The notes beneath the pieces were generated by a model. That model did not search any database. It saw only the letters and a program-made list of their open reading frames with translations, and had not been told where the DNA came from. Below, in pieces: positions 28,336-44,033 of a stretch of DNA of 64,000 nt. The stretch lies in assembly GCA_016235345.1 (NCBI GenBank), contig JACRLG010000011.1:1-64000 (forward strand). The letters run 5' to 3'. The position numbers and the translations under genes were made by a program. Each line of letters starts with the position of its first letter. Position 1 is the first letter of the stretch. The stretch is from Deltaproteobacteria bacterium. Its GTDB lineage: Bacteria; Desulfobacterota; Desulfobacteria; Desulfobacterales; Desulfatibacillaceae.

Positions 28336-29709
28336 TCACTGTTCCTGGATATCAAGCGAACGAAGGAGCCTTCGATCTATGGAGCCTGACTGGGCAAATC
28401 CCTTGTCGCTCTGGTATTTCATGACGGCTTCCTGGGTGATGGGCCCGAAAACGCCATCTACGGTTGAAGCATAGTATCCAAGGGCGGAAAGCTTTTCCTG
28501 CACGGCCCGGACCTGAATTTTCCTGCGTTCCCAGGCTGACAGCTTCTGAGCGTCCTCTGATTCTTTTGCGGATTCACTGGTGGCCGACTTCCTGGTATCC
28601 TGCTGTTTAGCGGGTCTGGCGGGCGTGTCTTGGGCTTGTGCCTTGCCCTTTGGGGCGGTCTCCTTGAACAGCGGTTTCTTTACGGGTTTGCCTGCGCGGT
28701 AATAATCAAGGTATCTCAAGACTTCTTCCAAAAGATGCTTCGGATAAATCTGACCGGCGCACTGATCCCAGACAGGCCTTGTTGCCTTTATAAAAGCAGC
28801 CTTGTTTTCCTGACTCAGTTCCGCGCGCTTTACCCCGTACTTTATCATGGCCTCCAGGGCCCGGGCATTTTCGTTCCGGCCAGCTTTCACGAAAGCGGCC
28901 TGAACAGCGTCACGACCGGAGTCCAGGTTCTCCTGGTATTCGTCCGGCAAGGCCTCGTAATTATTCCTGTTGATGACTATTATTGCCGGAGCATAGCGTA
29001 TCTTCATCGGATTCACGTACTTGATGACCGTGAAGAGCTGGCTCCCGGCGTAATACATGGCCGGGCCGATTGCAGTATCTGTGAGGCCCGTCTTGAGGCT
29101 GGTGTAAGCCTCGGTGACGTTCGTCGGCACAGGCTGGGCGCCAAGGGCCTTTATGGTGGCTGTTTCAATGGGACCTCCCCAGTTGCCGAATTTCATCTTC
29201 CTGAAATCTTCCAGGCTCACCATCTGATAACGAGTGGAATAGCACTGGTCGAAGTCCTGGTCGATCCACAGAAGCATCTTGAATCCATGCTGGCCGAAAT
29301 AGAAGTCAAAGGTTGAAAACATCATGGTTCGCAGGTAGTCCACCTCCTCATAGCCCTTTATCAGAAAAGGGAGTTCCAGCACGGACATTTCCGGGCAGGC
29401 CAGGTTTACCCCGGATTCGGTTATGCCCGCTCCCTGGAGCTGGCCTATCCGCATCTTCTTAAGGTACTCCGTGTCGTTTCCCATGACGCCGCCCCAGTAG
29501 AACTTGAACCTCAGGTTGTCGTCGGTGGCGTCCCGTATCCACGGGACGACCAGGGTCTGGAACTGCTGGGCCCATCCAACGTTCTTGGGGGCAAGGGAGG
29601 CCATTTTCCAGACAATGGGATTGCCTGCCGCCCCAGCCGAAACCGGTGAAAACAGAAGTATCCAGGCAGTGACTCCGAAAATGCTTTTTAAAAACAGCCG
29701 CCTTATCAT
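28336..29709 (-). CDS. TRAP transporter DctP-type binding protein fused to a peptidoglycan-binding domain
   Basis: 457 residues: Sec signal (MIRRLFLKSIFGVTAWILLF), a DctP solute-binding domain (about 25-340, with VWKMASLAPKN and YYAGSQLFTVIKYVNPMK), a Lys/Ala/Glu/Ser-rich linker (about 345-395), and a C-terminal PG_binding_1 repeat (VQEKLSALGYYASTVDGVFG, then PITQEAVMKYQSDKG). Start at 29709 after GGAGAAACAAA. No DctQ or DctM membrane genes are nearby. The fusion suggests a binding protein tethered to the cell wall rather than a standard free periplasmic one (inference). Second gene of a sigma-54 unit with the ADC-like gene. Confidence 0.85.
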   Translation of the reverse strand: MIRRLFLKSIFGVTAWILLFSPVSAGAAGNPIVWKMASLAPKNVGWAQQFQTLVVPWIRDATDDNLRFKFYWGGVMGNDTEYLKKMRIGQLQGAGITESGVNLACPEMSVLELPFLIKGYEEVDYLRTMMFSTFDFYFGQHGFKMLLWIDQDFDQCYSTRYQMVSLEDFRKMKFGNWGGPIETATIKALGAQPVPTNVTEAYTSLKTGLTDTAIGPAMYYAGSQLFTVIKYVNPMKIRYAPAIIVINRNNYEALPDEYQENLDSGRDAVQAAFVKAGRNENARALEAMIKYGVKRAELSQENKAAFIKATRPVWDQCAGQIYPKHLLEEVLRYLDYYRAGKPVKKPLFKETAPKGKAQAQDTPARPAKQQDTRKSATSESAKESEDAQKLSAWERRKIQVRAVQEKLSALGYYASTVDGVFGPITQEAVMKYQSDKGFAQSGSIDRRLLRSLDIQEQ

Positions 29710-29743
29710 TTTGTTTCTCCTTTCATCGGGTTGTCGTTGACCG

Positions 29744-30526
29744 TCAGGCATCCAGCAAATTCTTTGAATCGAAAAGCATGGCCCTGCTGTAAGGGCTGTA
29801 CTGGTAAGCCAGGGGTGTTTTGCCCAACTCAAGGTCCATCAACGTTTCGCAAAGCTCATGGCCTTCGCCCACTTCCACGGCGGCGCTTTCAGGCATAATG
29901 GACTGGGCGAATTTTTTGGGATCCACGTAGAGATTGGCCATTAAAAGGCGGTCCTCGAACTTCGTATACAATATGGTACGGGTTATCCGGCCTTTCGAGG
30001 TTGAAAGCTTGCGTCCGCGCATTTTTACCAGGCTCCTGCCGTTTACGTTCACCTCGCAGCAAAGGTATCCCGCATCCTCAGTCCATTTGAACTCTGCCAG
30101 GAACTTGGGGTAACCTGACATCTCCACGCCTCCGCGCCGGGCGATTTCGGAATCCACCGGAAGTGAGAGTATGTAGGCCTGCGCCTCGTTGCGCAGTAGC
30201 TGGCCGACTGCGGTAATGAGAGGAAGGCCCTTTTTGGGTTGGCTTACCAGGGCCGCAAGGGAGAATTCGTTGTACGGGCCGATGTCCGATTCCCTGTACT
30301 GAAAGGCCGAGATGGCCACAAGGCACCGGCCGGGGTAAAGTTCCACGGGATGCAGGGTATCGAAAGGCAGGCGCGACCGTACCTTTCGGGTGGAAGCTGA
30401 AAAGATGGCGGTGAGCGAGGTATTGTCGAAATAGAAAATGGGAAGCCTGGCCTGATAATCTTCGATGACCTTTTGATGGATTCCGTCAAAAAATGTATCG
30501 CTTGTTAAAACCGGAGGCTTCATCAT
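29744..30526 (-). CDS. Acetoacetate decarboxylase-like protein
   Basis: 260 residues of the ADC superfamily: a beta-cone fold with the central SGYPKFLAEF segment, whose Lys141 corresponds to the Schiff-base region of ADC. Relatives act as decarboxylases, aldolases or dehydratases, so the reaction is uncertain. First gene of the unit, 34 bp upstream of dctP. It is preceded by a -24/-12 promoter (30647-30662) and a pair of TTTCA-N3-TGAAA sites, linking it to the V4R activator encoded at 30792-32414. Confidence 0.8.
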   Translation of the reverse strand: MMKPPVLTSDTFFDGIHQKVIEDYQARLPIFYFDNTSLTAIFSASTRKVRSRLPFDTLHPVELYPGRCLVAISAFQYRESDIGPYNEFSLAALVSQPKKGLPLITAVGQLLRNEAQAYILSLPVDSEIARRGGVEMSGYPKFLAEFKWTEDAGYLCCEVNVNGRSLVKMRGRKLSTSKGRITRTILYTKFEDRLLMANLYVDPKKFAQSIMPESAAVEVGEGHELCETLMDLELGKTPLAYQYSPYSRAMLFDSKNLLDA

Positions 30527-30646: not shown

Positions 30647-30662
30647 AGCATGATATGTGCCA
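30647..30662 (-). promoter_or_regulatory. Sigma-54 promoter of the ADC-like/dctP unit
   Basis: On the minus strand TGGCAC (30662-30657), five bases, then ATGC (30651-30648): a close match to TGGCAC-N5-TTGC. It lies about 120 bp upstream of the 30526 start and about 85-105 bp downstream of two palindromes. Confidence 0.8.
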
Positions 30663-30740
30663 AGAGGGCTGAAATTAATAATATGATAATTATATTAGAT
30701 AGTTGAGAATAAAAGCGCGGGGCCGGTCTTCCAGATGGCA

Positions 30741-30791: not shown

Positions 30792-32414
30792 CTATTTCTG
30801 AAGATAACGCCACAAGGTGGTGGTGCCTATTCCGAGTATGCGTGCCGCCTCGGTCTTGTTGCCACTGGTGTGCTCCAATACCATGTTGGCGTAGCGCAGC
30901 TCCAACTCCTCCAAGGAAGGCAGCTCGGACATTATGCTTTGAAGGGGAGACCCTGCACTCTGCGTTATGGAAGAGGGCAAATGGGCGGGGGATATCTTGG
31001 CCTCAGGGGACATCACCAAGGCATACTCCATTGTGTTTTCCAACTCCCGGATATTGCCCGGCCAGGAATGGTTTTCGAGACATCTGACCACCTCAGGCTC
31101 CAAACCGGGGTGGCTTGGTTTCATACGCGAAAGAAAATGGCGGGCGAGTATGAGTATATCCTCTTTCCTGCGCCTAAGGGGTTCGACGTTCAAAGGGAAA
31201 ACCGAAAGGCGGTAAAACAGGTCCTCACGAAAATCACCCTTTTCGATCATCTGTTTCAAATCCCGGTTTGTGGCGGCAACGATACGGACATCAAGGGGCA
31301 TGTTCTGCGAGCCCCCAACCGGACGGACCTCCTTTTCCTGCAGAACTCGAAGGAGCTTCGCCTGCAGGGCAAGGGGCATCTCTCCCACCTCATCCAGAAA
31401 AAACGTCCCCCCGTCGGCATCAAGGAGGAGGCCCTTCCGGTTGCTGTCCGCTCCGGTGAAGGCCCCCTTGGTGTAACCGAAGAGCTCGGTTTCCAAAAGA
31501 TTTGAAGGAAGCGCGGCGCAGTTTATTGCAAAAAAGGGCTTCCGTTTGCGCCCGGAATGATCGTGGATAAACCTTGCCACAAGTTCCTTTCCCGTGCCGC
31601 TTTCTCCCTGTATCAGCACAGAAAGATCGGTCGCCGCGATTTTTTCAGCCAGCATCATGAGGTTAGCCATGGATTTGCCGCGATAGACTATCCCGGAAGA
31701 CTGCTTCATTACTCTTGCCTGCTTCTTGAGGCGCGCTATTTCGGCCTCGCTTTTGGCAAGGTCCTCACGGGATTGCTTAAGCTCCGCCTCAAGCCGGGAT
31801 ATGTCGCCTTCCAGTGTTGAAAGCGTGAGGGAATCCCTGAATGCTTTCAGTTCCTCTCCGCCCTCCTCCGGGAAGTAGGCGGAAAACGTGCATTCCGGTG
31901 AGCCTGCCGCCTTGCAGGCTGTCTCCCGCACCAGGATTTCCCGTCCGAAAACCGCGCTGGCGTAGCCGCTTAAAAAACCGGAGAGCAGGTTGCATATCGG
32001 CTGTGGGCTTAAGCCGGTTTTCTTGTTGAGATAGTTAAGGGCCTCGAAAGAGTCGTGCCATATTCCCTCGAAGCGCATCCTGTTCTTTTCCTCCTCATAC
32101 TCCCATCTGGTAATTTCCTGTTCGACAATTCCCGCCACGCGCATAACCACCTTGCAGGCATGAAACCATTCCAGACGCGAGTCGAAGTCATACATATCAC
32201 CGATGACCGCAGCAGCGGTAAGGCCGTTTTCGTAGCCTACCCGTGCCAGTAGCCTTCCCATGCTGTCCAGCCCGAGATGATGGGTGAGATCATCGCCGAA
32301 ACGCCTGAGCGATGAAATACCTGTGATAACTATCCTGTGCGACCCGAACAGGGGAAATCCCTTCTTGGGGTCGATCTTCAAAAGTTCAGTCATGGACAAG
32401 TCTTCAGCGCGCAT
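30792..32414 (-). CDS. Sigma-54 activator with XylR-N/V4R sensor domain (DmpR/XylR-like)
   Basis: 540 residues. The sensor (1-185) ends in a V4R domain with Cys141, Cys167 and Cys175. Then come a coiled-coil linker (200-235), AAA+ domain with Walker A GESGTGKE (270-277) and GAFTGA (317-322), and a Fis-type HTH at the end (NKTEAARILGIGTTTLWRYL). V4R activators such as DmpR and XylR bind small, often aromatic, effectors directly. I chose the ATG at 32414 as it begins the conserved sensor. Two -24/-12 promoters with shared palindromes flank it, so both neighbouring units are likely targets. Confidence 0.92.
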   Translation of the reverse strand: MRAEDLSMTELLKIDPKKGFPLFGSHRIVITGISSLRRFGDDLTHHLGLDSMGRLLARVGYENGLTAAAVIGDMYDFDSRLEWFHACKVVMRVAGIVEQEITRWEYEEEKNRMRFEGIWHDSFEALNYLNKKTGLSPQPICNLLSGFLSGYASAVFGREILVRETACKAAGSPECTFSAYFPEEGGEELKAFRDSLTLSTLEGDISRLEAELKQSREDLAKSEAEIARLKKQARVMKQSSGIVYRGKSMANLMMLAEKIAATDLSVLIQGESGTGKELVARFIHDHSGRKRKPFFAINCAALPSNLLETELFGYTKGAFTGADSNRKGLLLDADGGTFFLDEVGEMPLALQAKLLRVLQEKEVRPVGGSQNMPLDVRIVAATNRDLKQMIEKGDFREDLFYRLSVFPLNVEPLRRRKEDILILARHFLSRMKPSHPGLEPEVVRCLENHSWPGNIRELENTMEYALVMSPEAKISPAHLPSSITQSAGSPLQSIMSELPSLEELELRYANMVLEHTSGNKTEAARILGIGTTTLWRYLQK

Positions 32415-32567
32415 TTTCGGACCCTTAAGGAAAACCGGCTTACAGGAAGGAATGTTCGGATGGATTTGTAAGTGTAACCTTCGGCTGTCCCATAAATCAA
32501 GAGACAAAGGAAAATCTCTGCCGGACCCTGCCTTTAAGGATGAAAAATTTACAGGGGAAAATTTTTC

Positions 32568-32596
32568 TTGACGAATAAAAAGAACAGTGTTATAAG
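32568..32596 (+). promoter_or_regulatory. Sigma-70 promoter of the lipase gene
   Basis: TTGACG (32568-32573), 17 bp, TATAAG (32591-32596), about 120 bp before the lipase ATG. It differs from the -24/-12 promoters around it, so the lipase is probably outside the sigma-54 regulon. Confidence 0.7.
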
Positions 32597-32717
32597 AACA
32601 TTATTCTTTTTAATTGCCGTCGCTTCAACCGGATGGAATCAGTCTCATGGCAGGCTGGGGGCAAGGCCTCAAGCCGACATTAGTCGTGTCAAAACAAGGA
32701 AAAAGGGGGGGCTGAAA

Positions 32718-33629
32718 ATGAAAAAGGCAATGAAAAGCGTGCTGATTCTTTCGGGGCTGATTTTGATGTTAATGACGGCAATGCCGGGCGCCGCCCTTTG
32801 CGGAGGAAGCGGAAGCCTTAAGTGCGACACCCGCTACCCCGTGGTGCTGGCTCACGGAATGGGCGCCACCGCCGAGATGTTCGGATTCGTGGAGTACTGG
32901 TACGGCATACCTGAAGCCCTTAGAGATCAGGGCGCCGACGTTTATGCGGTCTCAGTTAACGCAATGGGCTCAACCGAAACCAAGGCCGCCCAGTTCAAGA
33001 CCCAGCTGCTGCAGATTCTGGCGGTCACTGGAAAGGCCAAGGCCAATGTTATCGGTCATTCCCACGGAGGCATCTATCCACGGTACGCCATCACAAACAT
33101 GGGTTTGGCCTCCAAGGTTGCGAGCCTGACCTCCATCGGCGCGCCCCACCGGGGCAGCACCGTGGTGGATGTAATGGTTTCCGGCCTGCCCGGCTCAATC
33201 TTCGCCTTGGGCTCCGATCTCACAAACTTCATGTATGCCTTCATCTGTGGCGACACCAACCCGGACTTTGCCACCAACGCAATCCAGCTGACCACGGGCT
33301 ACATGAGGAACATCTTCAACCCCAATACCCCCAACGTGTCCGGCGTCTATTACCAGAGCTACAACGGCAAGGTGAAGGTGGCCTGCCCCTTTGCCCTGAT
33401 ACAGCCTTGCTGGCTCCTGCTTCTGGCCACCGAGGGCGAAAGCGACGGAGCCACCAGCACCTATAGCGCCAAGTGGGGCACATGGAAAGGAACAGTGAGC
33501 GGAGCCTGGTACTCTCCCGGTGTGGATCATCTGGGCGAAGTTGGCCAGCTTTTGGGAGCCACTCCCGGCTTTGACGCCCCTGGCTTCTACGTTGGAATGG
33601 TGGGTGATCTTAAGGCGGCGGGCTTCTAA
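32718..33629 (+). CDS. Secreted triacylglycerol lipase (family I type)
   Basis: 303 residues with a clear signal peptide (MKKAMKSVLILSGLILMLMT and an AALC/G-rich cleavage region). The alpha/beta-hydrolase begins YPVVLAHGMGA (oxyanion hole), the nucleophile is Ser115 in GHSHGG, the acid Asp243 in GESDGATS and the base His271 in GVDHLGEVGQ, matching Pseudomonas/Burkholderia-type lipases. Those usually need a Lif foldase; none is visible nearby. AAGGGGGG precedes the chosen ATG. Fatty acids released could feed the acyl-CoA operon downstream (inference). Confidence 0.9.
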   Translation: MKKAMKSVLILSGLILMLMTAMPGAALCGGSGSLKCDTRYPVVLAHGMGATAEMFGFVEYWYGIPEALRDQGADVYAVSVNAMGSTETKAAQFKTQLLQILAVTGKAKANVIGHSHGGIYPRYAITNMGLASKVASLTSIGAPHRGSTVVDVMVSGLPGSIFALGSDLTNFMYAFICGDTNPDFATNAIQLTTGYMRNIFNPNTPNVSGVYYQSYNGKVKVACPFALIQPCWLLLLATEGESDGATSTYSAKWGTWKGTVSGAWYSPGVDHLGEVGQLLGATPGFDAPGFYVGMVGDLKAAGF

Positions 33630-33908: not shown

Positions 33909-33985
33909 CGGAGTGAACGCTGCTCATTTTTCTTTCGGCATGATAAACATTTGAAATAAAATGAAATAATTTCATTGCGCCTTTT

Positions 33986-34001
33986 TGGCACGAACCGTGC
34001 T
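33986..34001 (+). promoter_or_regulatory. Sigma-54 promoter of the acyl-CoA catabolic operon
   Basis: TGGCAC (33986-33991), five bases, GTGC (33997-34000), matching TGGCAC-N5-TTGC with one difference. About 65 bp upstream of the first dehydrogenase start. Confidence 0.8.
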
Positions 34002-34063: not shown

Positions 34064-35572
34064 ATGAGCCTTTCAATATCAAACCAAAGGTTAACAACCA
34101 TGGAGGACTGGTTCGACGACAATTCCGCAAGCCTTAAGGCCATATCCTCCCAGCCCGGGGCAATGGCCGGAGAAATTATGGAGGTTGTGAACCTTGCGAG
34201 AAAGTTCAAGGAGGAATTCATAAGGCCCCAAGCCATCGAGATGGACAAGAGAATCCAGGAAGACCATTCTTACCTGCCGGAGGAATGGGTTGATGAGGCT
34301 TGCAGGCGGGGCTTTTTCACATTGTGCGTTCCCAAGATATTCGGGGGGCAGGGCTATTGCTTTCCCGCACTGTCCTATTTCATGGAGGAAATCGCCTCCG
34401 TGTGCCTGGGGATGGCCAATATCATAGGTGCGCACTACCTGGGTCTGGGCACCCTCATCTGCACCTGGAACCTCCCCCTGATCGCAAGGGTCTGCCGGGA
34501 GATCGTCGAAGGTGAACGCAGCGGCAAGGCCTGCATGGTAAGCCTTGCCATGACCGAGCCCACCTCCGGTTCGGACACCCCGGAGCCCGATCTTCTCGAC
34601 AAGGGCCAGGTGGCCTGCCTGGCAAAAAAGGAAGATGGCGGTTACCGGGTTAACGGTTCCAAGATCTTCATATCGAACGGCCATTTTTCAACCTGGCACA
34701 TGACAGTGGCCTTCGAGGACCTTGCGCGCCCTTCCGAAACTGCGGTGATCCTGGCGGTGCGCAATGGCGCCAAGGGCTTCCAGGTCGCCGGCAAGGAATC
34801 CAAGATGGGCCAGTTGGCCTGCCCCGCGAGCGAACTCGTTTTCAACGACTGTTTCATCCCAAACGAGCAGGTGGCGCTGTCTCCCGACATGACCAGAGGA
34901 TATTCCAGGACCCACAGGGAAATATACCAACATTTATTCGACGACCTTTGCTCCATATCCAGGGCGGGCGTATGCGCCTTAAGCGCCGGGGCGGCCCGGG
35001 GCGCATACGAGAGCGCTCTTGCTTTCGCTGCTATGGCGAAAAAAAAGGGAGATTACCTCATAAACTCGGAATGGGTGCAGTGCCGGCTGGCGGAGATGTA
35101 CAAGAACGCAGTCGTTGCGAGGCTTCTTTACATAGAAGCCAACTACGCAAACGGCAATCACGGCATTTACAAGGGCCTTCAGGCAAAGCCGGTCTATTAC
35201 GCCTTAAGGTACCTTCCGAAATCATTCCTGTCCTGGGGTCTTGGCAAAGCGCTTGGATTGGAATGGCTTACCGGGCTCATCCGCAAAAGGCAGCTTTCAG
35301 GCTTCAACCCGGGCATGGTGCAGCGCACCGCAGGTTTAGGGGCTCTGGCCAAATTCGCCAGCTCGGACGCGGCCTGTGAAAACGCACAGCTGGCCATGGA
35401 GATGATGGGGGCAAAAGGGTTGAGGCACGAGCTGGGCACAGAAAAACGCCTCAGGGACATAAAGCTCCTTCAGATTTACGAGGGCACCAACCAGATATGC
35501 CGTATGGACCTTTTCAGAAACCTGATAGCCCGCCGCCTGCCACAGGCAAAGCTCTATGAGGAATGCGTCTAA
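34064..35572 (+). CDS. Acyl-CoA dehydrogenase, catalytic subunit
   Basis: 502 residues, longer than the usual 380 at both ends of the core. FAD/substrate motifs CMVSLAMTEPTSGSD and NGSKIFISNG are intact, and the catalytic base is Glu473 in IYEGTNQICR, the medium/short-chain ACAD position. It introduces an alpha,beta double bond into an acyl-CoA, passing electrons to ETF or a dedicated acceptor. First gene of the sigma-54 operon; the ATG follows AAAAAGGAAACCGCCGC. A second, Glu-less ACAD starts 13 bp after it and may be its partner. Confidence 0.92.
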   Translation: MSLSISNQRLTTMEDWFDDNSASLKAISSQPGAMAGEIMEVVNLARKFKEEFIRPQAIEMDKRIQEDHSYLPEEWVDEACRRGFFTLCVPKIFGGQGYCFPALSYFMEEIASVCLGMANIIGAHYLGLGTLICTWNLPLIARVCREIVEGERSGKACMVSLAMTEPTSGSDTPEPDLLDKGQVACLAKKEDGGYRVNGSKIFISNGHFSTWHMTVAFEDLARPSETAVILAVRNGAKGFQVAGKESKMGQLACPASELVFNDCFIPNEQVALSPDMTRGYSRTHREIYQHLFDDLCSISRAGVCALSAGAARGAYESALAFAAMAKKKGDYLINSEWVQCRLAEMYKNAVVARLLYIEANYANGNHGIYKGLQAKPVYYALRYLPKSFLSWGLGKALGLEWLTGLIRKRQLSGFNPGMVQRTAGLGALAKFASSDAACENAQLAMEMMGAKGLRHELGTEKRLRDIKLLQIYEGTNQICRMDLFRNLIARRLPQAKLYEECV

Positions 35573-35584
35573 AGGAGACCAATC

Positions 35585-36712
35585 ATGCAAGCCGATAAGG
35601 TTGCCAAAGAATATCAAATGCTTGAAAAGTCGGTGCGGGAGTTTGCGGCCAAGATGCTCCGCCCCCGGCTGGAGGAAAACGACCGTTATCCGGTAAGCGA
35701 CGATTTCGCAAAAGCAGTGGAAAAGGCGATGGAGCTTGAGTACTTTTCAGTGATGCTTCCGGAAGATATGAACGGCTTCGGCGGAAAGACACTTCCTCTG
35801 GGTATTGTGCTTTCGTGCATTTCGGAAACCGACGCCGCCATGGGCGCAATGATTCTCACAAACGCCGTGGCCCAGGAAATAATGCTTACAGCCGGAGAAA
35901 CGGATATCGTAAGGGATATTTGCGGCAAGGCCGACTGGAGCCGCGAGCTTCTCATCGCGTTCCCCCTTTTGACGGATCCGGAGGAGGACGAAATCCTCCT
36001 TTCCGCAAAAAAAGAGGACGGAAAATACCGGCTGTCTGGAACGGCTGAGTACGTGGTGATGGGACCGATGGCCCGAAGGGCTCTTGTTCCCGCAAAGCTT
36101 GGAAACGAGCCGGGATACGGGTTTTTCCTGGTGGATTTGGACCTGCCGGAGTCAAGCTCCCAAGGAGCCATATCGAGCGCAGGTCTGCACGCCTGCCCGG
36201 CCTCCGATATCAAATTCATGGGCGCCCAGGCGCGTCTCATGGGGAGGATGGAGGACGGCCCCCGTTATTATGAGCAAACGTGCATTAAAATGCTCCCGGC
36301 CGCCGCCGCAGTGGCGGGCGGCCTTATGCAGGGCTCCATGAAGGAAGCCCTCTCGTACTGCAAAAAGCGCAGGCAGGGCGGCAGAAGGATCATTGACTGG
36401 TCGGAACTGCGCCTGATTCTCTCTGATATGCTCCTTGCGGCCAACACCGGCCGGATACTTCTCGACAACGCCTTCCGGGCGGTTGACGCCCATTCGGCCA
36501 AATGGGCCGAAGACGCTCTTACTGCATCCGTCTACGTCCTTGAAACAGCGTGCAGGCAGACATCCGACGGCATCCAGGCCCTTGGCGGCTACGGCTACAC
36601 AAAGCATTCCTTTCAGGAGCGCCGTTTCCGGGACGCCCAGCATTTGAGGTCAATTTTCGGAAGCGCTGTCCCACGAAGGCTTGCATACGCAAAACTTGGT
36701 CTCAATTGCTGA
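35585..36712 (+). CDS. Acyl-CoA dehydrogenase-like subunit lacking the catalytic Glu
   Basis: 375 residues, normal ACAD length and fold: N-terminal helical domain, C-terminal GGYGYTKHSFQERRFRDAQ. The segment that should read IYEGT is IFGSA, so the catalytic Glu is Gly359, and the substrate-loop TEP..GSD region is replaced by LLTDPEEDE. The reading frame is intact, which argues for function as a partner subunit. Heteromeric ACADs made of one active and one degenerate chain are known in steroid catabolism of actinobacteria (ChsE-type); here it would pair with the upstream enzyme. Confidence 0.85.
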   Translation: MQADKVAKEYQMLEKSVREFAAKMLRPRLEENDRYPVSDDFAKAVEKAMELEYFSVMLPEDMNGFGGKTLPLGIVLSCISETDAAMGAMILTNAVAQEIMLTAGETDIVRDICGKADWSRELLIAFPLLTDPEEDEILLSAKKEDGKYRLSGTAEYVVMGPMARRALVPAKLGNEPGYGFFLVDLDLPESSSQGAISSAGLHACPASDIKFMGAQARLMGRMEDGPRYYEQTCIKMLPAAAAVAGGLMQGSMKEALSYCKKRRQGGRRIIDWSELRLILSDMLLAANTGRILLDNAFRAVDAHSAKWAEDALTASVYVLETACRQTSDGIQALGGYGYTKHSFQERRFRDAQHLRSIFGSAVPRRLAYAKLGLNC

Positions 36713-36768
36713 AAATGAGGCCCAAAGCCATCCATTGAAGAATTTTTCCATAAATATGGAGAAGACAT

Positions 36769-37599
36769 ATGAAATCCCTGAAAGACAAGGTGGCCGTGGT
36801 GACGGGGGCCGCATCCGGCATAGGCCGCGAATTGTCGAAAGTCCTGGCCTCTGAGGGCTGCCATTTGGCCGTGGCGGATAAAAACGCCGAAGGTTTGCTG
36901 GAAACCGCTGGCATGCTGGAAAAAATCGGCGTCCGCACACTTTCGAGCCAGGTGGATGTCTCCAGCGCCGGGGATGTGGAGAAATTCGCGGCTCAGGTCA
37001 TGGAACAGTTCGGACGTGTGGATATTATAATCAACAACGCTGGCATCGCCGTAGTGGCCCATATTGACCAAACGAACACTCCCGCATTCCAGAATGTCAT
37101 GAACGTAAACTTCTGGGGCGTCTACAACGGGGTGACAGCCTTTCTTCCTTATCTGAAGAAACAGGGCTTTGGGCACATCGTCAACATATCCAGTGTGTTC
37201 GGACTGTGGGGCATACCCACCCAGGCCGCATACAACTGCAGCAAGTTCGCGGTGCGGGGGCTTTCGGAGTCCCTGGCCCAGGAGCTTTCGGGAACCGGCA
37301 TAAAAGTCTCCTGCGTCTATCCGGGCGGAATCAGGACTAATATTGCAAAAAGCGCCGGGTTCAATCAGTCTTTCGGGCCGTTTAAGGACAAGGAAACCTT
37401 CCGGAAGCTTTTCGACGAGCACCTGGCCATTACCTCCCCGGAAAAGGCGGCCCTGTGCATAGTCAGGGGCATAAAGGCAAACCGCGCGAGGATACTCATC
37501 GGCCCGGACGCCTACCTTATGGATTATACCCAGAGGCTTTTCCCAAGGCTTTACCAGAACATCATCCCGGCGGCCATAAAACTGATGGGGAGGAAATGA
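36769..37599 (+). CDS. Short-chain dehydrogenase/reductase
   Basis: 276 residues, classical SDR: cofactor motif TGAASGIG (12-19), NNAGIA, Ser141/142, Tyr155-x3-Lys159 (YNCSK) and a CVYPGGIRT segment after it. Asp37 in VADKN points to NAD(H). In this operon it most likely oxidises a 3-hydroxyacyl-CoA. Its stop overlaps the start of the thiolase gene (ATGA). A C-terminal helical tail beyond residue 240 is longer than in small SDRs. Confidence 0.88.
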   Translation: MKSLKDKVAVVTGAASGIGRELSKVLASEGCHLAVADKNAEGLLETAGMLEKIGVRTLSSQVDVSSAGDVEKFAAQVMEQFGRVDIIINNAGIAVVAHIDQTNTPAFQNVMNVNFWGVYNGVTAFLPYLKKQGFGHIVNISSVFGLWGIPTQAAYNCSKFAVRGLSESLAQELSGTGIKVSCVYPGGIRTNIAKSAGFNQSFGPFKDKETFRKLFDEHLAITSPEKAALCIVRGIKANRARILIGPDAYLMDYTQRLFPRLYQNIIPAAIKLMGRK

Positions 37600-38855
37600 A
37601 AGAAATGTCGCAAGACGTTTACATAATCGGAACGGCCATGACCAAGTTCGGCAAATACCTGGAAAAAGGGGTGAAGACCCTTGCCGGCGAAGCCCTTGAC
37701 CTGGTTCTTAAGGATGCGGGTCTTTCGCGTGGCGATATCGAGGCCGCTTGGTTTTCAAACTCAGGATGGGGCTACCACTCATTCCAGCACGCCGTGCGGG
37801 GCCAGGTGGCGCTTTCCGCAGGCGGCCTGGAAGGCCTTCCCATCGTTAATGTGGAAAACGCCTGCGCAAGCGGATCCACCGCCCTTCACTCCGCCTGGGC
37901 GGCTGTAAAAGCCGGAATATACGACTGTGTTTTGGCCCTGGGGGCTGAAAAGATGTACGACGCCGACAAGGCCAAAACCATGATGATGTTCATGTCAGGC
38001 TCGGATGTGGAGGAGCTTTCGGTCTTCATGGAAAAATTCCGGGAGGCTGAGCAGAAACGAAAAGAAAAAGAGGCCCGCGAAAAGGGCCTGGAACCGCCGA
38101 AACCCGGCGGCGGCGGGCACTCGGCCTTCGTGGATCTATATTCCATAGGCGCCCGCATGCACATGGAAAAATACGGAACCACCCAGCGCCAATACGCAGT
38201 CATCGCGGCCAAGGCGCACATGAACTCCGTCATGAATCCCTACGCCCAATACACCTTTCCCATGACCGTGGAGGAAGTTCTGGCAGACCGGGAGGTCAGC
38301 TTTCCCCTGACCCGCGCCATGTGTGCACCCGTGGGGGATGGGGCTGCTGCGGTGATTTTGTGCGGCGAAAACTTTCTTAAGCGCCGGGGAACCCGAAGAA
38401 GCCTGCGTATCCGCGCCTCGGTTTTAAAGTCGGGAACCCGCACCGGCGACAACGATATATGCGCCCGTGCTTCCCGGGCTGCATACGAGATGGCCGGGTT
38501 GGGGCCGGAAGACATACACGTGGTGGAAGTCCATGACGCCACGGCCTTCGGGGAGCTTCACCAGTGCGAGCAGATGGGCTTCTGCCCTGTGGGGGAAGGC
38601 GGCCCCTTTGCCGAAAGCGGAGCAACAGCCATCGGGGGGAAGATTCCCATCAATCCCGGAGGCGGGCTCATCGCCCGTGGCCATCCAGTGGGAGCTTCCG
38701 GGCTTGCCCAGGTCTTCGAGCTTGCCGCGCACTTAAACGGCGAGGCGGGGAAAAGGCAGGTAACAGGCGCACGCATGGCGCTTGCGGAAAACGGCGGCGG
38801 ATTCCTTGGCACGGGCGAGGCTGCCATGGCGGTCCACATACTGGAAAAGGTTTAG
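37596..38855 (+). CDS. Thiolase (SCP2/lipid-transfer type)
   Basis: 419 residues. Cys90 in ENACASGS is the acyl-binding nucleophile and His363 in GLIARGHPVGASG is the base. The C-terminal second Cys of classical thiolases is missing (AENGGGFLGTGEA), which is the pattern of SCP2-type thiolases and of non-cleaving relatives. A Lys/Glu/Arg-rich insertion (about 150-175) is unusual. It would cleave a 3-ketoacyl-CoA with CoA, completing beta-oxidation in this operon. Start overlaps the SDR stop. Confidence 0.85.
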   Translation: MKEMSQDVYIIGTAMTKFGKYLEKGVKTLAGEALDLVLKDAGLSRGDIEAAWFSNSGWGYHSFQHAVRGQVALSAGGLEGLPIVNVENACASGSTALHSAWAAVKAGIYDCVLALGAEKMYDADKAKTMMMFMSGSDVEELSVFMEKFREAEQKRKEKEAREKGLEPPKPGGGGHSAFVDLYSIGARMHMEKYGTTQRQYAVIAAKAHMNSVMNPYAQYTFPMTVEEVLADREVSFPLTRAMCAPVGDGAAAVILCGENFLKRRGTRRSLRIRASVLKSGTRTGDNDICARASRAAYEMAGLGPEDIHVVEVHDATAFGELHQCEQMGFCPVGEGGPFAESGATAIGGKIPINPGGGLIARGHPVGASGLAQVFELAAHLNGEAGKRQVTGARMALAENGGGFLGTGEAAMAVHILEKV

Positions 38856-38864
38856 GGGGCTGAT

Positions 38865-39596
38865 ATGTCCGAGACCGGCAAGGATAATCGAGACGCTTTT
38901 CTGGAAAAGCTTAAGGCCGAGTTCACGGAAACAGAGAAAGTGATCTTAAGCCGCAGAAGCGTCCGCCAGTTCAAAAAGGAACAGGTCCCGGAGTTCATGG
39001 TGAAAAGAATTCTGGAGGCTGGCAGGTTCGCCCCCTCCGCCGGTAACTTCCAGCCCTGGAAATTCATCGTGGTGAGGGATCAGGAGATAATCGGCGGCAT
39101 CACAAAAACCGTGATGGACACCTGCCGCTCCTTTACAAGGATAGTGGACTACAGGGCCGGGGGCTCGCCCTTTATTCGCAGCATGGCCAAGTTTTTAACC
39201 TGGCTTAAGCCCAACGAACTGCATCCCATGCCTTTTTCAGCTCTGCCCCTGGTGGCCGCTGGGAAGCTTTCACTTTTTCACGGCGCGCCCACGGTCATCA
39301 TCATATTGAAAGATGTCCGGGGTGTGTCGAAGCCGGACCTCGATTGCGGCATAGCGGGCCAGAATATGGTGCTGGCTGCTCACAGCATGGGGCTGGGAAC
39401 CTGTTGGGTGGGCTTTTCCAAGCTGGCCCTGGACAGGAACACCCAATGGAAAAAAAGGCTTGGAATAAAATACCCGTACAGGTTCGCCTCAAGCCTCGCC
39501 ATAGGCTGGCCGAAGGGCAATCCCGACGGGATGGTTCCCAGACAACTCCATGCAATTGACTGGCACGAGAACGGCGGCATCCAAACCGTCTACTGA
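38865..39596 (+). CDS. Nitroreductase-family FMN oxidoreductase
   Basis: 243 residues. N-terminal RRSVRQFKKEQV and RFAPSAGNFQPWKF are the FMN-phosphate and dimer motifs; GLGTCWVG precedes the C-terminal end. The protein starts after a GGGGGCT ribosome-binding site. A ferredoxin gene follows 15 bp later. Members act on nitro, quinone or enoate substrates. In this setting it is more likely a dedicated electron-transfer or acyl-CoA-linked reductase using the ferredoxin, but that is inference. Confidence 0.85.
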   Translation: MSETGKDNRDAFLEKLKAEFTETEKVILSRRSVRQFKKEQVPEFMVKRILEAGRFAPSAGNFQPWKFIVVRDQEIIGGITKTVMDTCRSFTRIVDYRAGGSPFIRSMAKFLTWLKPNELHPMPFSALPLVAAGKLSLFHGAPTVIIILKDVRGVSKPDLDCGIAGQNMVLAAHSMGLGTCWVGFSKLALDRNTQWKKRLGIKYPYRFASSLAIGWPKGNPDGMVPRQLHAIDWHENGGIQTVY

Positions 39597-39611
39597 CAAG
39601 AAAGGGCTGCT

Positions 39612-39929
39612 ATGGGAGCCTTCGGCTTTCTGGACCGATTCCGAATCCCGACATATGACGATCCTTTTCAAATGCGATACGGATCGGTTGAAATAGATCC
39701 CGATAAATGTATCGGCTGCGCCCTGTGCGCAGGGGCATGCCCGGCGGACGCCATTTTCATGGAGTGTGAAAAAGCGCGGCCCAGGCTCGCCAAAGAGAAC
39801 TTTTGCGCCTTCTGCGGAGACTGCGCGGCCATATGCCCAAAAGGGGCGGTCACGCTTATAAGCCCTTACGGATTTTCAAGGTTTTTCAAAACGTTGGACC
39901 GCGAAGGCCTGAGTCTTCCGAGGCTTTGA
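39612..39929 (+). CDS. 2[4Fe-4S] ferredoxin
   Basis: 105 residues with two clusters: Cys33, 36, 39, 43 (CIGCALCAGACP) and Cys65, 68, 71, 75 (CAFCGDCAAICP). A basic N-terminal extension precedes. It sits between the nitroreductase-like protein and the CoA ligase and most likely carries electrons for the former or for the acyl-CoA dehydrogenase pair. Confidence 0.92.
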   Translation: MGAFGFLDRFRIPTYDDPFQMRYGSVEIDPDKCIGCALCAGACPADAIFMECEKARPRLAKENFCAFCGDCAAICPKGAVTLISPYGFSRFFKTLDREGLSLPRL

Positions 39930-39956
39930 CATTTCAAGAAAAAAGGAACAGACACC

Positions 39957-41552
39957 ATGAGCCATGAACGGATGGCTATTCCGCAGAAAACGTCCTACTG
40001 GTCCGAAGAGCTGGAAAGACAGGCCGAGATCAACAAAGACAAGGCCTTCCTGTACCTGGTGCAGGAAAGGCGCTCGGTTTCATACGGAAAGATGAACGAA
40101 AACGCCAACCGCCTGGCCAACTTTCTGCTCTCGAAGGGAGCAAGGCCCGGCGACGGGCTGGCGACCCTCATGGGGAACTCCGCCATGTTTCTGGACGCCT
40201 TTTTCGGAATCCAGAAGATAGGAATGTACATAAACCCGGTCAACACCGGCCTTAGGGGCGAGGGCCTCTCCTTCATCATAGACAACTGCGACGCCCGCTT
40301 CCTGATGGTGGATTACGACAAGCTGGACCTTTATCAAAGCGTTCGGGGGGCCACCCCGAAAATAACGCATGTGATAGTGAACACCTTTGGAGCCCCTGAT
40401 GATTTCAAGGTTCCGAAAGGAATGCTGGACCTTAAGGAGGCCTACTCCGCCGACGTTTCCTGCGCGAAACCAAGGGTTGATTTTTGCCTCAATTCGCTGC
40501 TTCTCATAATGTACACCTCCGGCACAACGGGGCTCCCCAAGGGGGTCGTCTTCAGATACAACAAAAATCTGGTTGAAAAGATAAGGCTGCTTTCCCAGTT
40601 CGTGATGACTCCCGATTCGATCTATTACTCACCCCTGGCGCTGTTTCACGGAAACGCCCTTTTCGTGGCCATGACCCAGGTGCTGGTTGCCGGGGCCACC
40701 CTTGCGCTTTCCACTAAATTTTCCGCCTCCAGGTTCTGGGAGGAGGTTTCCGAGTCTTGCGCCACAATATTCAATACTGTGGGAGCGATTATTCCAATTC
40801 TCCTCAAGCAGCCGGCAAGCCCCTTTGAAAAGACCCACCGCGTAAAGTTCATCATCTCGGCGGGATGTCCTGCTGACATGTGGGAGCCCTTCGAAAAAAG
40901 GTTCGGCGTCACCATCTACGAAGCGTACGGTTCCATTGACGGCACCGGCTCCATCATGAACCTTGGGAATGCGCCCAAGGGCTCCGTTGGACAGACTCTG
41001 TTATCCGACATCCGGCTGGTTGATGAGAAGGGCTGCGATGTCCCGGTTGGAACTGCTGGCGAGCTCCTCTTTCGGGTCAATCCCGACAGGAAGAGTACAG
41101 TTGAATACTACAAAAACGACGACGCCACCATATCCAAGACCAGGGGTGAATGGGAGCACACCGGAGACTACATGTACAGGGACTGCGCGGGCTATCTTTA
41201 TTTTGTAGGCCGCAAGACGGATTCCATGCGAAGGCGCGGTGAGAATGTTTCAGCCTACGAGGTGGAAAAGGTAATTCTTAACAACCCCATGATACAGGAG
41301 TGCGCCGTCTACGGGGTTCCCTCCGAAATGACCGAGGACGAGATCATGGCCTCTGTGACTCTGGTGAACGGCAGTCGGATGCTCCCGTCGGAGCTTCGTG
41401 ACTTTTTGAAGGACAAACTCGCCCGGTACGCCATTCCACGTTACATAAGGATAGTGGACGATTTCCCGCGAACCGAGACCTTCCGCATAAAGAAAAACGA
41501 ACTCAAGGCCCTGGGCGTTACGCAGGATACCTGGGACGCGGAAAATCCATGA
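39957..41552 (+). CDS. AMP-forming acyl-CoA synthetase/ligase
   Basis: 531 residues. The P-loop YTSGTTGLPKGV, the A-domain segment YEAYGSIDGTG, the hinge and C-terminal SMRRRGENVSAYEVE, and Lys in FRIKKNELK are all present. The RRRGENVSAYEVE block is typical of the CaiC/carnitine-CoA-ligase-like branch, but the acid substrate cannot be named. It activates the operon's starting acid to its CoA ester at the cost of ATP, later partly regained by Ptb and Buk. Confidence 0.9.
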   Translation: MSHERMAIPQKTSYWSEELERQAEINKDKAFLYLVQERRSVSYGKMNENANRLANFLLSKGARPGDGLATLMGNSAMFLDAFFGIQKIGMYINPVNTGLRGEGLSFIIDNCDARFLMVDYDKLDLYQSVRGATPKITHVIVNTFGAPDDFKVPKGMLDLKEAYSADVSCAKPRVDFCLNSLLLIMYTSGTTGLPKGVVFRYNKNLVEKIRLLSQFVMTPDSIYYSPLALFHGNALFVAMTQVLVAGATLALSTKFSASRFWEEVSESCATIFNTVGAIIPILLKQPASPFEKTHRVKFIISAGCPADMWEPFEKRFGVTIYEAYGSIDGTGSIMNLGNAPKGSVGQTLLSDIRLVDEKGCDVPVGTAGELLFRVNPDRKSTVEYYKNDDATISKTRGEWEHTGDYMYRDCAGYLYFVGRKTDSMRRRGENVSAYEVEKVILNNPMIQECAVYGVPSEMTEDEIMASVTLVNGSRMLPSELRDFLKDKLARYAIPRYIRIVDDFPRTETFRIKKNELKALGVTQDTWDAENP

Positions 41553-41564
41553 GCTCCAGAAATA

Positions 41565-42509
41565 ATGGCGGTTCTAATGATCAGAAACTTTAAGGAGCTT
41601 CTGGCCGAAGCGCGGGCGACGCCTCCCATCACCGTTTCCGTAGCCGCAGCCGACGAGGGCGAGACCTTGAAGGCCGTGGTGGAGGCGGCCAAGATTGGGC
41701 TTGCGAAAGCGGTCCTTGCAGGTGACCGGAACATCATCGAGGAAATGCTGGCGCGGGAGTCCGTCCCCGCCCAAACTTTCGAGATACTCCACGAAAAAAA
41801 CCCCGTAAAGGCTGCGGCCCTTGCTGTCCAGGCGGTCAGCGGCGGGCGCGCCGACATATTAATGAAGGGAGGGGTTTCCACCTCCAAATTTTTGCAGTCG
41901 GCCCTTTCCGCCCAAGGGGGCCTCCGGCGCGGGCTTTTCAGCGATGTTGCCGTTTACGAGGACCAGCGGTCGGAAGCAAGGCTGGTGCTGGTTTCGGACG
42001 GCGGGGTCAATATCCTGCCAACCATAAGGCAGAAGCTGGAAATTATTGGAAACGCCGTGAGAGTCGCCCATCGCCTGGGTATCAAAAGCCCAAAGGTGGC
42101 TCTTCTCTCCGGGTCCGAGAAGGTTCACCCGGATTTCGGCTCCACAATAGATGCGGTGGCCCTGGTGAAAATCTGCCAGGACAGCCCGGTGGAAGGCTGC
42201 GTGGTGGACGGGCCCTTCGCACTTGATAACGCCATAGACGAGGCATCTGCCAGAAAAAAGGGCATAGAATCGCCGGTGGCCGGGCGCGCCGACATCCTGA
42301 TCGTGCCCAGCCTCGAGGCTGGAAACATCTTCACAAAGGGTCTTCAGTATTATGCAGGAAAAATGCTGATCCACGTTGGAATGGGTGCCTTGGCGCCCAT
42401 TCTCATAGACTCGCGCTCGGCCACATACGCTGAAAAGATGCTCTCCCTGGCCCTGGCGAAGCTCATGTGCGGAAAAGATTCTTACGGAAACGGACCGTCC
42501 GATGATTGA
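41565..42509 (+). CDS. ptb: Phosphate butyryltransferase (phosphate acyltransferase)
   Basis: 314 residues of the PTA/PTB family. SGGRADILMKGGVSTSKFLQ carries the phosphate/acyl-binding strand. It converts an acyl-CoA (short chain such as butyryl-CoA) and phosphate to acyl phosphate. The end overlaps the ACT gene, and butyrate kinase follows, so the pair gives substrate-level phosphorylation. ATG at 41565 or 41577. Confidence 0.85.
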   Translation: MAVLMIRNFKELLAEARATPPITVSVAAADEGETLKAVVEAAKIGLAKAVLAGDRNIIEEMLARESVPAQTFEILHEKNPVKAAALAVQAVSGGRADILMKGGVSTSKFLQSALSAQGGLRRGLFSDVAVYEDQRSEARLVLVSDGGVNILPTIRQKLEIIGNAVRVAHRLGIKSPKVALLSGSEKVHPDFGSTIDAVALVKICQDSPVEGCVVDGPFALDNAIDEASARKKGIESPVAGRADILIVPSLEAGNIFTKGLQYYAGKMLIHVGMGALAPILIDSRSATYAEKMLSLALAKLMCGKDSYGNGPSDD

Positions 42510-42951
42510 AGACAGCGACTATATGATACCCCAGCTATCGGTTTTCATCGAAAACAGGCTTGCAAGTCTTTCAGAGCTTGCGCGCCGCCTGGCGGATGAA
42601 AACATCAATCTTCGAGGATTTACTCTCGCCGAATCAAGGGAGTTCGGAACCGTTCGCATCATAGTGGCGGAGGTGGAGGCCTGTAAGGTTGCGTTGAATA
42701 AGGCGGGCTACCACTACGTGGAAACCCCGGTGCTGGCTGTGGAAGTCACGGACAGGCCGGGAGGCATGGCCAATGTTCTTGAACACCTTGCCTGTTCACA
42801 CATAAACGTGGACTACGCATACGCCATGACAGAAAAGCACGGACTGAGCGCCGTAATCATTTTGCGGGTGGATGATTTGAAAAAGGCCGTCATGGTCTTG
42901 AAGAAGACGAATGTTCGGCTGCTTTCGCGGAAGGACATTACACTGATATGA
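42502..42951 (+). CDS. Tandem ACT-domain protein
   Basis: 149 residues forming two ACT folds (about 8-72 and 77-145: LSVFIENRLASLSELARRLA and LAVEVTDRPGGMANVLEHLA). Free-standing ACT proteins bind amino acids or similar small ligands and tune neighbouring enzymes. Its position between ptb and buk, with overlapping starts on both sides, suggests it regulates that pair allosterically. The ligand is unknown. Confidence 0.88.
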   Translation: MIEDSDYMIPQLSVFIENRLASLSELARRLADENINLRGFTLAESREFGTVRIIVAEVEACKVALNKAGYHYVETPVLAVEVTDRPGGMANVLEHLACSHINVDYAYAMTEKHGLSAVIILRVDDLKKAVMVLKKTNVRLLSRKDITLI

Positions 42952-44033
42952 AGACCCAAGGCAAGGACGCGGGCGGGTTCCGAATACTCGTAATCAATCC
43001 CGGAAGCACATCCACCAAGGTTGCGCTGTTTCACGGCGAAATATGTGTGGCGTCCAGCACCCTCAATCATTCAGGCGAAGAGCTTGCGGTGTTCAATAAG
43101 GTAATGGACCAGTTGGATATGAGGACGGAGGCCGTTCTTGCGTTCTGCTCGGAAAACGGAATTTTGAGGGCGGACGCCGTTGTGGGACGCGGCGGTCTTC
43201 TAAGGCCCGTTGCCGGAGGAACTTTTCGGGTGAACCACGCCATGATCCGGGACCTTATGGAATCAAGGTTCGGAGAGCACGCATCAAATTTGGGGCCCAT
43301 CCTTGCAGATAGGTTCGGGGAAAAGTTTGGCGCCCCGGCGTTCATCGTGGACCCTGTAAGCGTGGACGAGTATGAGCCTTGCTCAAGGATTTCGGGCTTT
43401 CCCGGCATTGAGAGGCGATGCCGCACCCATGCCCTTAACATAAAGGCGGTTGCACGCAGGTGCGCGGAGGAACTCAACAAGCCTCTTCGGGATACGAATT
43501 TCGTGGTGGCGCATTTGGGAGGCGGTATCTCAGTATGCGCCCTTGCTGGCGGACGGATAATTGATTCCACCGACGGCCTTCTGGGCGAAGGGCCTTTTTC
43601 CATGGAGCGGGCCGGGACCCTTCCGATTAGCGGGGTCATTGACCTTTGCTTCGATAAGGGGCTTTCGAAAAAGGAGGTGCTCCACCTCTTTTCAAGATGC
43701 TCCGGTTTTTTTGGATACACCGGGATTGGTAGTTTTAAGGATATATTAGAGCTGATTGAAGCAGGCGACAGGACGGCGCTTCTGGTTTTCGAGGCAATGG
43801 TAAGGCAGGTGGTAAAATGGATCGCCGCAATGGCGGCCCTTTTCAAGGGGGCTGCAGACTCGATAATCCTCACGGGCGGGATGGCAAACTCTCTTCTTTT
43901 AACCTACGCCATACAGGAGTACATCGGGCACCTGGCCCGCGTGATTGTATATCCGGGCGAGTTCGAGATGGAGGCTCTGGCCGGGGGCGTTTGCCGAATC
44001 CTTAAAAAATCCGAACCTGAATTGGATTACTGA
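42948..44033 (+). CDS. buk: Butyrate kinase
   Basis: 361 residues of the acetokinase family. ASKHA motifs: ILVINPGSTSTKVALF (phosphate 1), GRGGLLRPV, VVAHLGGGISVCAL and the C-terminal IILTGGMANS adenosine motif. It forms ATP from butyryl phosphate (or branched/medium homologues). The ATG overlaps the stop of the ACT gene. Last gene of the sigma-54 operon. Confidence 0.92.
   Translation: MKTQGKDAGGFRILVINPGSTSTKVALFHGEICVASSTLNHSGEELAVFNKVMDQLDMRTEAVLAFCSENGILRADAVVGRGGLLRPVAGGTFRVNHAMIRDLMESRFGEHASNLGPILADRFGEKFGAPAFIVDPVSVDEYEPCSRISGFPGIERRCRTHALNIKAVARRCAEELNKPLRDTNFVVAHLGGGISVCALAGGRIIDSTDGLLGEGPFSMERAGTLPISGVIDLCFDKGLSKKEVLHLFSRCSGFFGYTGIGSFKDILELIEAGDRTALLVFEAMVRQVVKWIAAMAALFKGAADSIILTGGMANSLLLTYAIQEYIGHLARVIVYPGEFEMEALAGGVCRILKKSEPELDY

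Follow-up and report, generated by a model that had tools for sequence, protein, structure and literature searches.

Adjacent genes for a phosphotransacylase (Ptb) and a butyrate-kinase-family acyl kinase (Buk) are known from the clostridial butyrate route and, as HpdJ and HpdK, from a 4-hydroxyphenylacetate route, and PMC13285125 describes homologs that form ATP from branched-chain and aryl-acetyl-CoA. Here, we analyzed the first 64,000 nucleotides (nt) of contig JACRLG010000011.1 (the window) from a deltaproteobacterial genome of the Desulfatibacillaceae (GCA_016235345.1; 4.01 Mb, 97% complete), probably of a sulfate-reducer-type organism, in which a ten-gene block at positions 34064-44033 carries a gene for a pair of ACT domains between ptb and buk. 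The block shares with the described route its enzyme families, their neighboring genes, and the expected chemistry. It differs in the intervening ACT protein, in a Ptb that scores under curated cutoffs and carries clade-specific residues, and in the lack of an adjacent 2-oxoacid:ferredoxin oxidoreductase. Our preferred reading, to which we give a probability of roughly 0.45, is that a sigma-54-controlled catabolic operon has been joined to a regulated switch, in which a CoA ligase, Ptb, the ACT protein, and Buk would govern the passage between acid, acyl-CoA, and acyl phosphate. We found no paper on an ACT domain paired with Ptb, Buk, or the ligase PaaK in the literature searched, which lies mostly outside subscription journals. 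New here are a sigma-54-type promoter of the operon, a neighboring gene for an XylR_N/V4R activator, and an ACT linkage specific to one Ptb clade.

The ten genes all lie on the forward strand and belong to the following predicted families, as judged from open reading frame (ORF) calls and matches to Pfam or curated profiles.

34064-35572, +: acyl-CoA dehydrogenase (ACAD1), 502 amino acids (aa), catalytic Glu (YEGT) kept (Pfam, alignment)
35585-36712, +: ACAD-like protein (ACAD2), 375 aa, N and C domains matched, middle domain unmatched, catalytic Glu lost (Pfam, alignment)
36769-37599, +: short-chain dehydrogenase/reductase (SDR) (Pfam/curated profiles)
37596-38855, +: SCP2-type thiolase, nucleophile Cys kept, HDAT replacing HDCF (Pfam, alignment)
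38865-39596, +: nitroreductase-family flavoprotein (Pfam)
39612-39929, +: two-[4Fe4S] ferredoxin (Pfam)
39957-41552, +: AMP-forming acyl-CoA ligase, PRK06155-like (Pfam/curated profiles)
41565-42509, +: Ptb of the ACT-linked clade (Pfam PTA_PTB, tree)
42502-42951, +: ACT-domain pair (ACT_8, PF19571), DxPGG kept in the second domain (Pfam)
42948-44033, +: Buk (curated profiles)

This is the gene order given by the initial annotation. The intergenic gaps are 12, 56, -4, 9, 15, 27, 12, -8, and -4 nt in gene order, and because they are tight compared with the spacing on either side of the block (434 nt on the upstream side, 1120 nt on the downstream side), a single transcript for all ten genes is plausible; the co-transcription originally claimed is probable from the shared strand and the spacing. 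The overlapping starts described around the ACT gene are also present, as overlaps of 8 nt with ptb and 4 nt (ATGA) with buk. The acyl-phosphate chemistry proposed for the block is likewise supported by Buk, which scores above the curated butyrate kinase cutoffs (TIGR02707, 411.1 versus 289.1 bits; NF002834, 438.1 versus 222 bits). Ptb falls below the curated equivalog cutoff TIGR02706 (282.6 versus 410.5 bits) and under all other curated Ptb cutoffs tried, yet it passes that of Pfam PTA_PTB (147.7 versus 24 bits), and its closest solved chain is the phosphate butyryltransferase 7vg9. The ligase had no match against the PDB at 1e-50.

A genome scan with two Ptb peptide patterns, blind to ACT, found nine relative loci, and an ACT gene stands directly 3' of ptb in every one of them, with ACT identities of 50 to 62%. 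Of the 38 Ptb loci entered into the comparison, L078 gave no Ptb row and was dropped. An ACT gene lies beside none of the 28 other ptb genes from the order and phylum searches, some of which end near ptb (e.g., L036) so that an ACT gene could be missed there; the wider region around L078, L109, contains Buk and Ptb without ACT. The ACT gene as a chance neighbor is ruled out by this difference (9/9 versus 0/28). In the Ptb tree, the ten ACT-linked phosphotransacylases group as a single clade (Shimodaira-Hasegawa-like approximate likelihood ratio test [SH-aLRT], 100), and their ACT partners form one clade in the ACT tree (SH-aLRT, 100), apart from those linked to PaaK. All ten clade members carry D127, H188, and H270, positions at which the other Ptbs have mostly His (23/28), Asn (24/28), and Gly (26/28), respectively. 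The sequences thus support a specific tie between the ACT protein and this Ptb clade.

The ACT protein itself passes the ACT_8 gathering cutoff (59.3 versus 23.5 bits), and the nearest solved ACT pair, 2f06, which is mentioned only in passing in the papers found on it, aligns over residues 9 to 146, as expected of a paired-domain protein. D-x-P-G-G, the usual ACT ligand loop, is retained by the second domain in each of the 40 ACT rows. Other members of the family occur elsewhere in the same order, where an ACT_8 homolog of about 40% identity is encoded immediately after another CoA-ester-forming enzyme; the partner there is the AMP-forming ligase PaaK, and those ACT proteins fall in a separate clade. 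We compared 30 loci, with those of the relatives being the top-scoring matches rather than all. A PaaK-type CoA ligase was recognized in 29 of them (every one but L028), and in 28 of these 29 it is followed by the ACT paralog, the exception being L015, where no ACT gene was called. This genome has two such pairs, which sit around genes for a Liv-type (branched-chain-amino-acid-type) ABC transporter (L128; G000:C28:298000-317999).

These pairs invite the explanation that the target of the ACT protein is the CoA ligase rather than Ptb, as may be the case for PaaK, and that its position between ptb and buk is a mere matter of gene order. The PaaK count and the two pairs in this genome speak for it. 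Among the six Ptb-ACT loci without Buk, however, a ligase was recognized within the retrieved stretch only in L115, as the second gene past ACT (L116 and L122 end near the pair), and the Ptb-linked ACT proteins form a clade of their own. We regard this as the least probable of the alternatives weighed here, and a quite unlikely one; we continue to favor a switch in which Ptb, or the CoA-ester step as a whole, is gated.

A CoA ligase is nevertheless a regular companion of the complete set. It lies upstream of Ptb-ACT-Buk in all four loci that have all three genes (the window, L114, L118, and L119), with one gene in between in L114 and directly before ptb in L118 and L119. The upstream ligase is PaaK-like in L119 (the same as L108) by Pfam and in L118 by sequence likeness. 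Buk comes next after Ptb-ACT in these three of the nine relatives, and ORF coordinates give the same 4-nt ACT-Buk overlap in L114 and L118; ORFs in fetched loci were chosen by length and GC content at third codon positions, so starts are approximate and some ORFs merge in-frame neighbors. In three further loci, L141, L142, and L143 (genomes G621, G627, and G622), two divergent tandem ptb genes directly precede buk, and a separate Ptb-ACT pair is present elsewhere in these genomes.

If a ligase and a Ptb-Buk pair worked simultaneously on one acid, the net conversion would, by our arithmetic, be that of ADP and Pi to AMP and PPi, a wasteful outcome. An alternative to our reading is a division of labor in acid scavenging, with Buk and Ptb activating the acid at high concentration for one ATP to ADP, the ligase doing so at low concentration, and the ACT protein choosing between them. 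AckA-Pta and Acs divide acetate activation by concentration in a comparable manner. The ligase beside Ptb-ACT-Buk in four of four loci, drawn from two ligase families, is in keeping with this idea, and dsrA, present in the genome above its curated cutoff, suggests a respiratory organism able to oxidize acids. Buk-type enzymes are, however, usually described in the ATP-forming direction. We consider this idea improbable; cheap activation is retained within our favored switch as one of two directions in which Ptb and Buk could run.

The catabolic half of the operon has peculiarities of its own. ACAD1 keeps the catalytic Glu motif YEGT in all six rows reaching that position, and the catalytic Glu is missing from all six ACAD2 homolog rows. 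Two ordinary dehydrogenases are ruled out by the loss in ACAD2 (6/6). Because one subunit retains the catalytic base and the other has lost it, ACAD2 is probably the noncatalytic partner of ACAD1 in a heteromer. Heteromeric steroid acyl-CoA dehydrogenases exist, and, as here, they are adjacent pairs with one subunit devoid of the catalytic Glu. The present locus differs from them in having no DUF35 partner for its thiolase, as Pfam detected no DUF35 gene among the 16 window proteins scanned.

The thiolase nucleophile Cys is present in 14/14 rows and HDAT in the 13/13 rows that reach that position, where the matched SCP2 thiolase has HDC; its closest matches include both thiolases and DUF35-complex enzymes. 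Thiolase-like aldolases likewise vary in this active site (PMC12329534). Since HDAT replaces HDC here and such aldolases also vary at this site, the step need not be that of a plain beta-ketothiolase. Ferredoxin and nitroreductase probably work together, because the ferredoxin domain and nitroreductase are fused in one ORF in L111 and L135 and apparently also in L112 and in the C2 cluster of this genome. In L111, and apparently in L112, the fused ORF has ligase and thiolase genes as neighbors; in L135, it stands alone.

The initial annotation held that one transcript encodes all steps needed to activate an acid, oxidize it, and recover ATP, which goes too far: ACAD2 lacks a catalytic base, and the block contains no recognized hydratase. 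Pfam found no enoyl-CoA hydratase among the ten genes, and three queries found no crotonase match in 64 kb. No MaoC hydratase was matched either, but the two MaoC queries recovered only themselves in the control, making this exclusion weaker. For want of a hydratase, the block falls short of a complete beta-oxidation operon of dehydrogenase, hydratase, 3-hydroxyacyl-CoA dehydrogenase, and thiolase. A 2-oxoacid:ferredoxin oxidoreductase, as in a Stickland-type operon, is absent from the ten genes and from six scanned neighbors.

We searched 242 genomes of the order and 395 of the phylum to assess the distribution of the block. The idea of one conserved ten-gene block, which the initial annotation had proposed looking for in related genomes, is rejected, as the full set was found nowhere else in either collection. 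Ptb homologs at E ≤ 1e-40 occur in 14/242 order genomes, including that of the window, the other 13 at 33 to 39% identity, and in 17/395 phylum genomes, two of them close besides the window; a phylum search around G621 returned 4/395 at E ≤ 1e-60. Thiolase homologs are more widespread (58/242 order genomes at E ≤ 1e-70), and we fetched 20 stretches carrying them to compare gene content. Several combine thiolase, nitroreductase, ferredoxin, ligase, ACAD1, and ACAD2, the SDR is also present in some (L096, L098, L102, and L103), and subsets occur in L095, L099, L100, L101, and L105. None of these stretches (L095, L096, L098 to L103, and L105) contains Ptb, ACT, or Buk. The window copy therefore resembles an order-wide cluster in its families, a related set of which also lies at C7 of this genome, and differs from it by the addition of Ptb-ACT-Buk and a sigma-54-type promoter. 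The core cluster in L098 (G239:C6) has in its vicinity a PFL-like glycyl radical enzyme of 1004 aa and a member of the HpaB family. Within a related cluster, L097:9656-12097 (-) encodes an old-yellow-enzyme-type reductase that carries an SCP2 domain fused at its C terminus, a hint that the substrate may be lipid-like.

The two halves of the operon have different nearest relatives. The closest cluster to the catabolic half is L094, in another genome of the order (G117), with identities of 83% for thiolase, 72% for SDR, 69% for ACAD1, 61% for an acetoacetate-decarboxylase (ADC)-family protein, and 57% for ACAD2; it has no ligase, nitroreductase, or ferredoxin. The catabolic half is also paralogous to a locus in which a ligase related to that of the window adjoins a thiolase, present in all eight family genomes searched, including this one at C7, but the window ligase is nearer to that of the metagenome-assembled genome Prado116 (L114; 76%) than to its own C7 copy (51%). 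In L114, the ligase is followed by an NDP-forming-synthetase-like gene, Ptb (70%), ACT (62%), and Buk (64%). Because the catabolic half is closest to L094 and the ligase-Ptb-ACT-Buk half to L114, the operon is a mosaic of a G117-like and a Prado116-like half.

This distribution bears on a simpler account, that of the initial annotation: incomplete oxidation coupled to substrate-level phosphorylation, in which the ligase activates an acid, the upstream enzymes shorten it, Ptb and Buk release the shorter acid and ATP, and the ACT protein is incidental or serves fine-tuning. The gene order and tight spacing fit, as does ATP formation by the characterized Ptb and Buk homologs cited above, and the only PTA_PTB match and the only acetokinase-family match of this dsrA-bearing genome are both in the operon. 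On the other hand, the block has no recognized hydratase and no adjoining 2-oxoacid oxidoreductase, the core cluster occurs without Ptb-Buk in the other order genomes examined, and the ACT linkage is left unexplained. This account is the strongest competitor to a regulated switch, although we still judge it unlikely.

Regulation of the operon is suggested by its flank, which contains the following features.

29744-30526, -: ADC-family gene (Pfam)
30647-30663, -: second sigma-54-type site, ahead of the ADC-family gene (consensus scan)
30792-32507, -: sigma-54-dependent activator with XylR_N, V4R, AAA, and Fis helix-turn-helix (HTH) domains (Pfam; GAFTGA read in the translation)
33985-34001, +: sigma-54-type -24/-12 site, TTGGCACGAACCGTGCT, 62 nt upstream of the first ATG of the operon (consensus scan)

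The two sites are the best two in 64 kb, and the activator gene is encoded between them. The two matches compare with 0.54 expected, and two or more were found in 8/100 shuffles, so the weight rests on their positions. Ahead of the most similar cluster lies another such site (12 of 13; L094:10831-10847). The L094 genome has a regulator homolog (71%) on another contig, with no sigma-54-type site in the 20 kb around its gene, and the gene neighbors of regulator homologs in two other genomes pointed to no pathway. Both components of a sigma-54 regulon, a -24/-12 element and a GAFTGA-bearing enhancer-binding activator, are thus present in the window, and sigma-54 control of the operon is likely on this evidence. 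The arrangement resembles that of XylR/DmpR-type regulators in its XylR_N, V4R, AAA, and Fis HTH domains, with sigma-54-type sites on both sides, and differs in flanking acyl-CoA genes rather than an aromatic hydrocarbon operon. The ADC-family gene probably belongs to the same pathway as the operon, because its homolog lies inside the L094 cluster. A lipase-like alpha/beta hydrolase (32568-33629, +; Pfam) lies between the activator and the operon. Directly past the ADC-family gene, 28336-29832 (-) encodes a TRAP-type DctP solute-binding protein that ends in a peptidoglycan-binding domain (Pfam), a pairing that seems uncommon.

Under our preferred reading of a sigma-54-controlled operon joined to a switch, the substrate would probably be a branched, cyclic, or aromatic acid. 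The ligase would make its acyl-CoA, spending ATP to AMP. Further processing would fall to a heteromeric dehydrogenase with one live and one dead subunit, to the SDR, and to the SCP2-type thiolase; the hydratase would be encoded elsewhere, and ferredoxin and nitroreductase would together carry electrons. Ptb and Buk would interconvert acyl-CoA and acid plus ATP, either recovering ATP from the product or activating the acid cheaply. The ACT pair would sense a small molecule and gate Ptb, or more broadly the CoA-ester step, thereby keeping the ligase and Ptb-Buk from running against each other.

Several observations count against this reading. In the window protein, the first ACT domain lacks the usual loop glycine, and both sigma-54-type sites are consensus matches only. 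The Ptb-ACT relatives are not fully independent, as the Ptbs of L120 and L121 are identical. Six of the nine relative loci have no Buk beside Ptb-ACT (L122 ends about 300 nt past ACT), and among eight Ptb-ACT genomes, six have Buk, three of which keep it elsewhere by tandem ptb genes, and two have none. Because Buk is so often absent from the neighborhood or placed elsewhere, Ptb-ACT need not serve ATP synthesis. The ACT paralogs are mostly found beside ligases, so the ligase may be the ACT target. Finally, whereas the genes, their spacing, the sigma-54-type sites, the mosaic origin, the Ptb-ACT linkage, and the dead ACAD subunit can be read from the sequence, we infer the substrate, the ligand, the direction, and Ptb as the target of the ACT protein.

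More generally, we tentatively propose, with somewhat less confidence than we place in the operon model, that this Ptb clade is an obligate partner of an ACT sensor and that the two form a valve, gated by a metabolite, that connects acyl-CoA with acyl phosphate. Some anaerobes would have this valve placed between their CoA ligase and acyl kinase, where it would choose between acid activation and ATP. If true, this would show how an anaerobe whose CoA esters are served by a ligase that takes ATP to AMP as well as by an ATP-forming Ptb-Buk pair avoids a futile cycle, and it would leave two enzymes and one small sensor open to direct expression and assay. That PaaK ligases, too, have members of this sensor family as neighbors points to a wider, uncharacterized regulator of acid activation.

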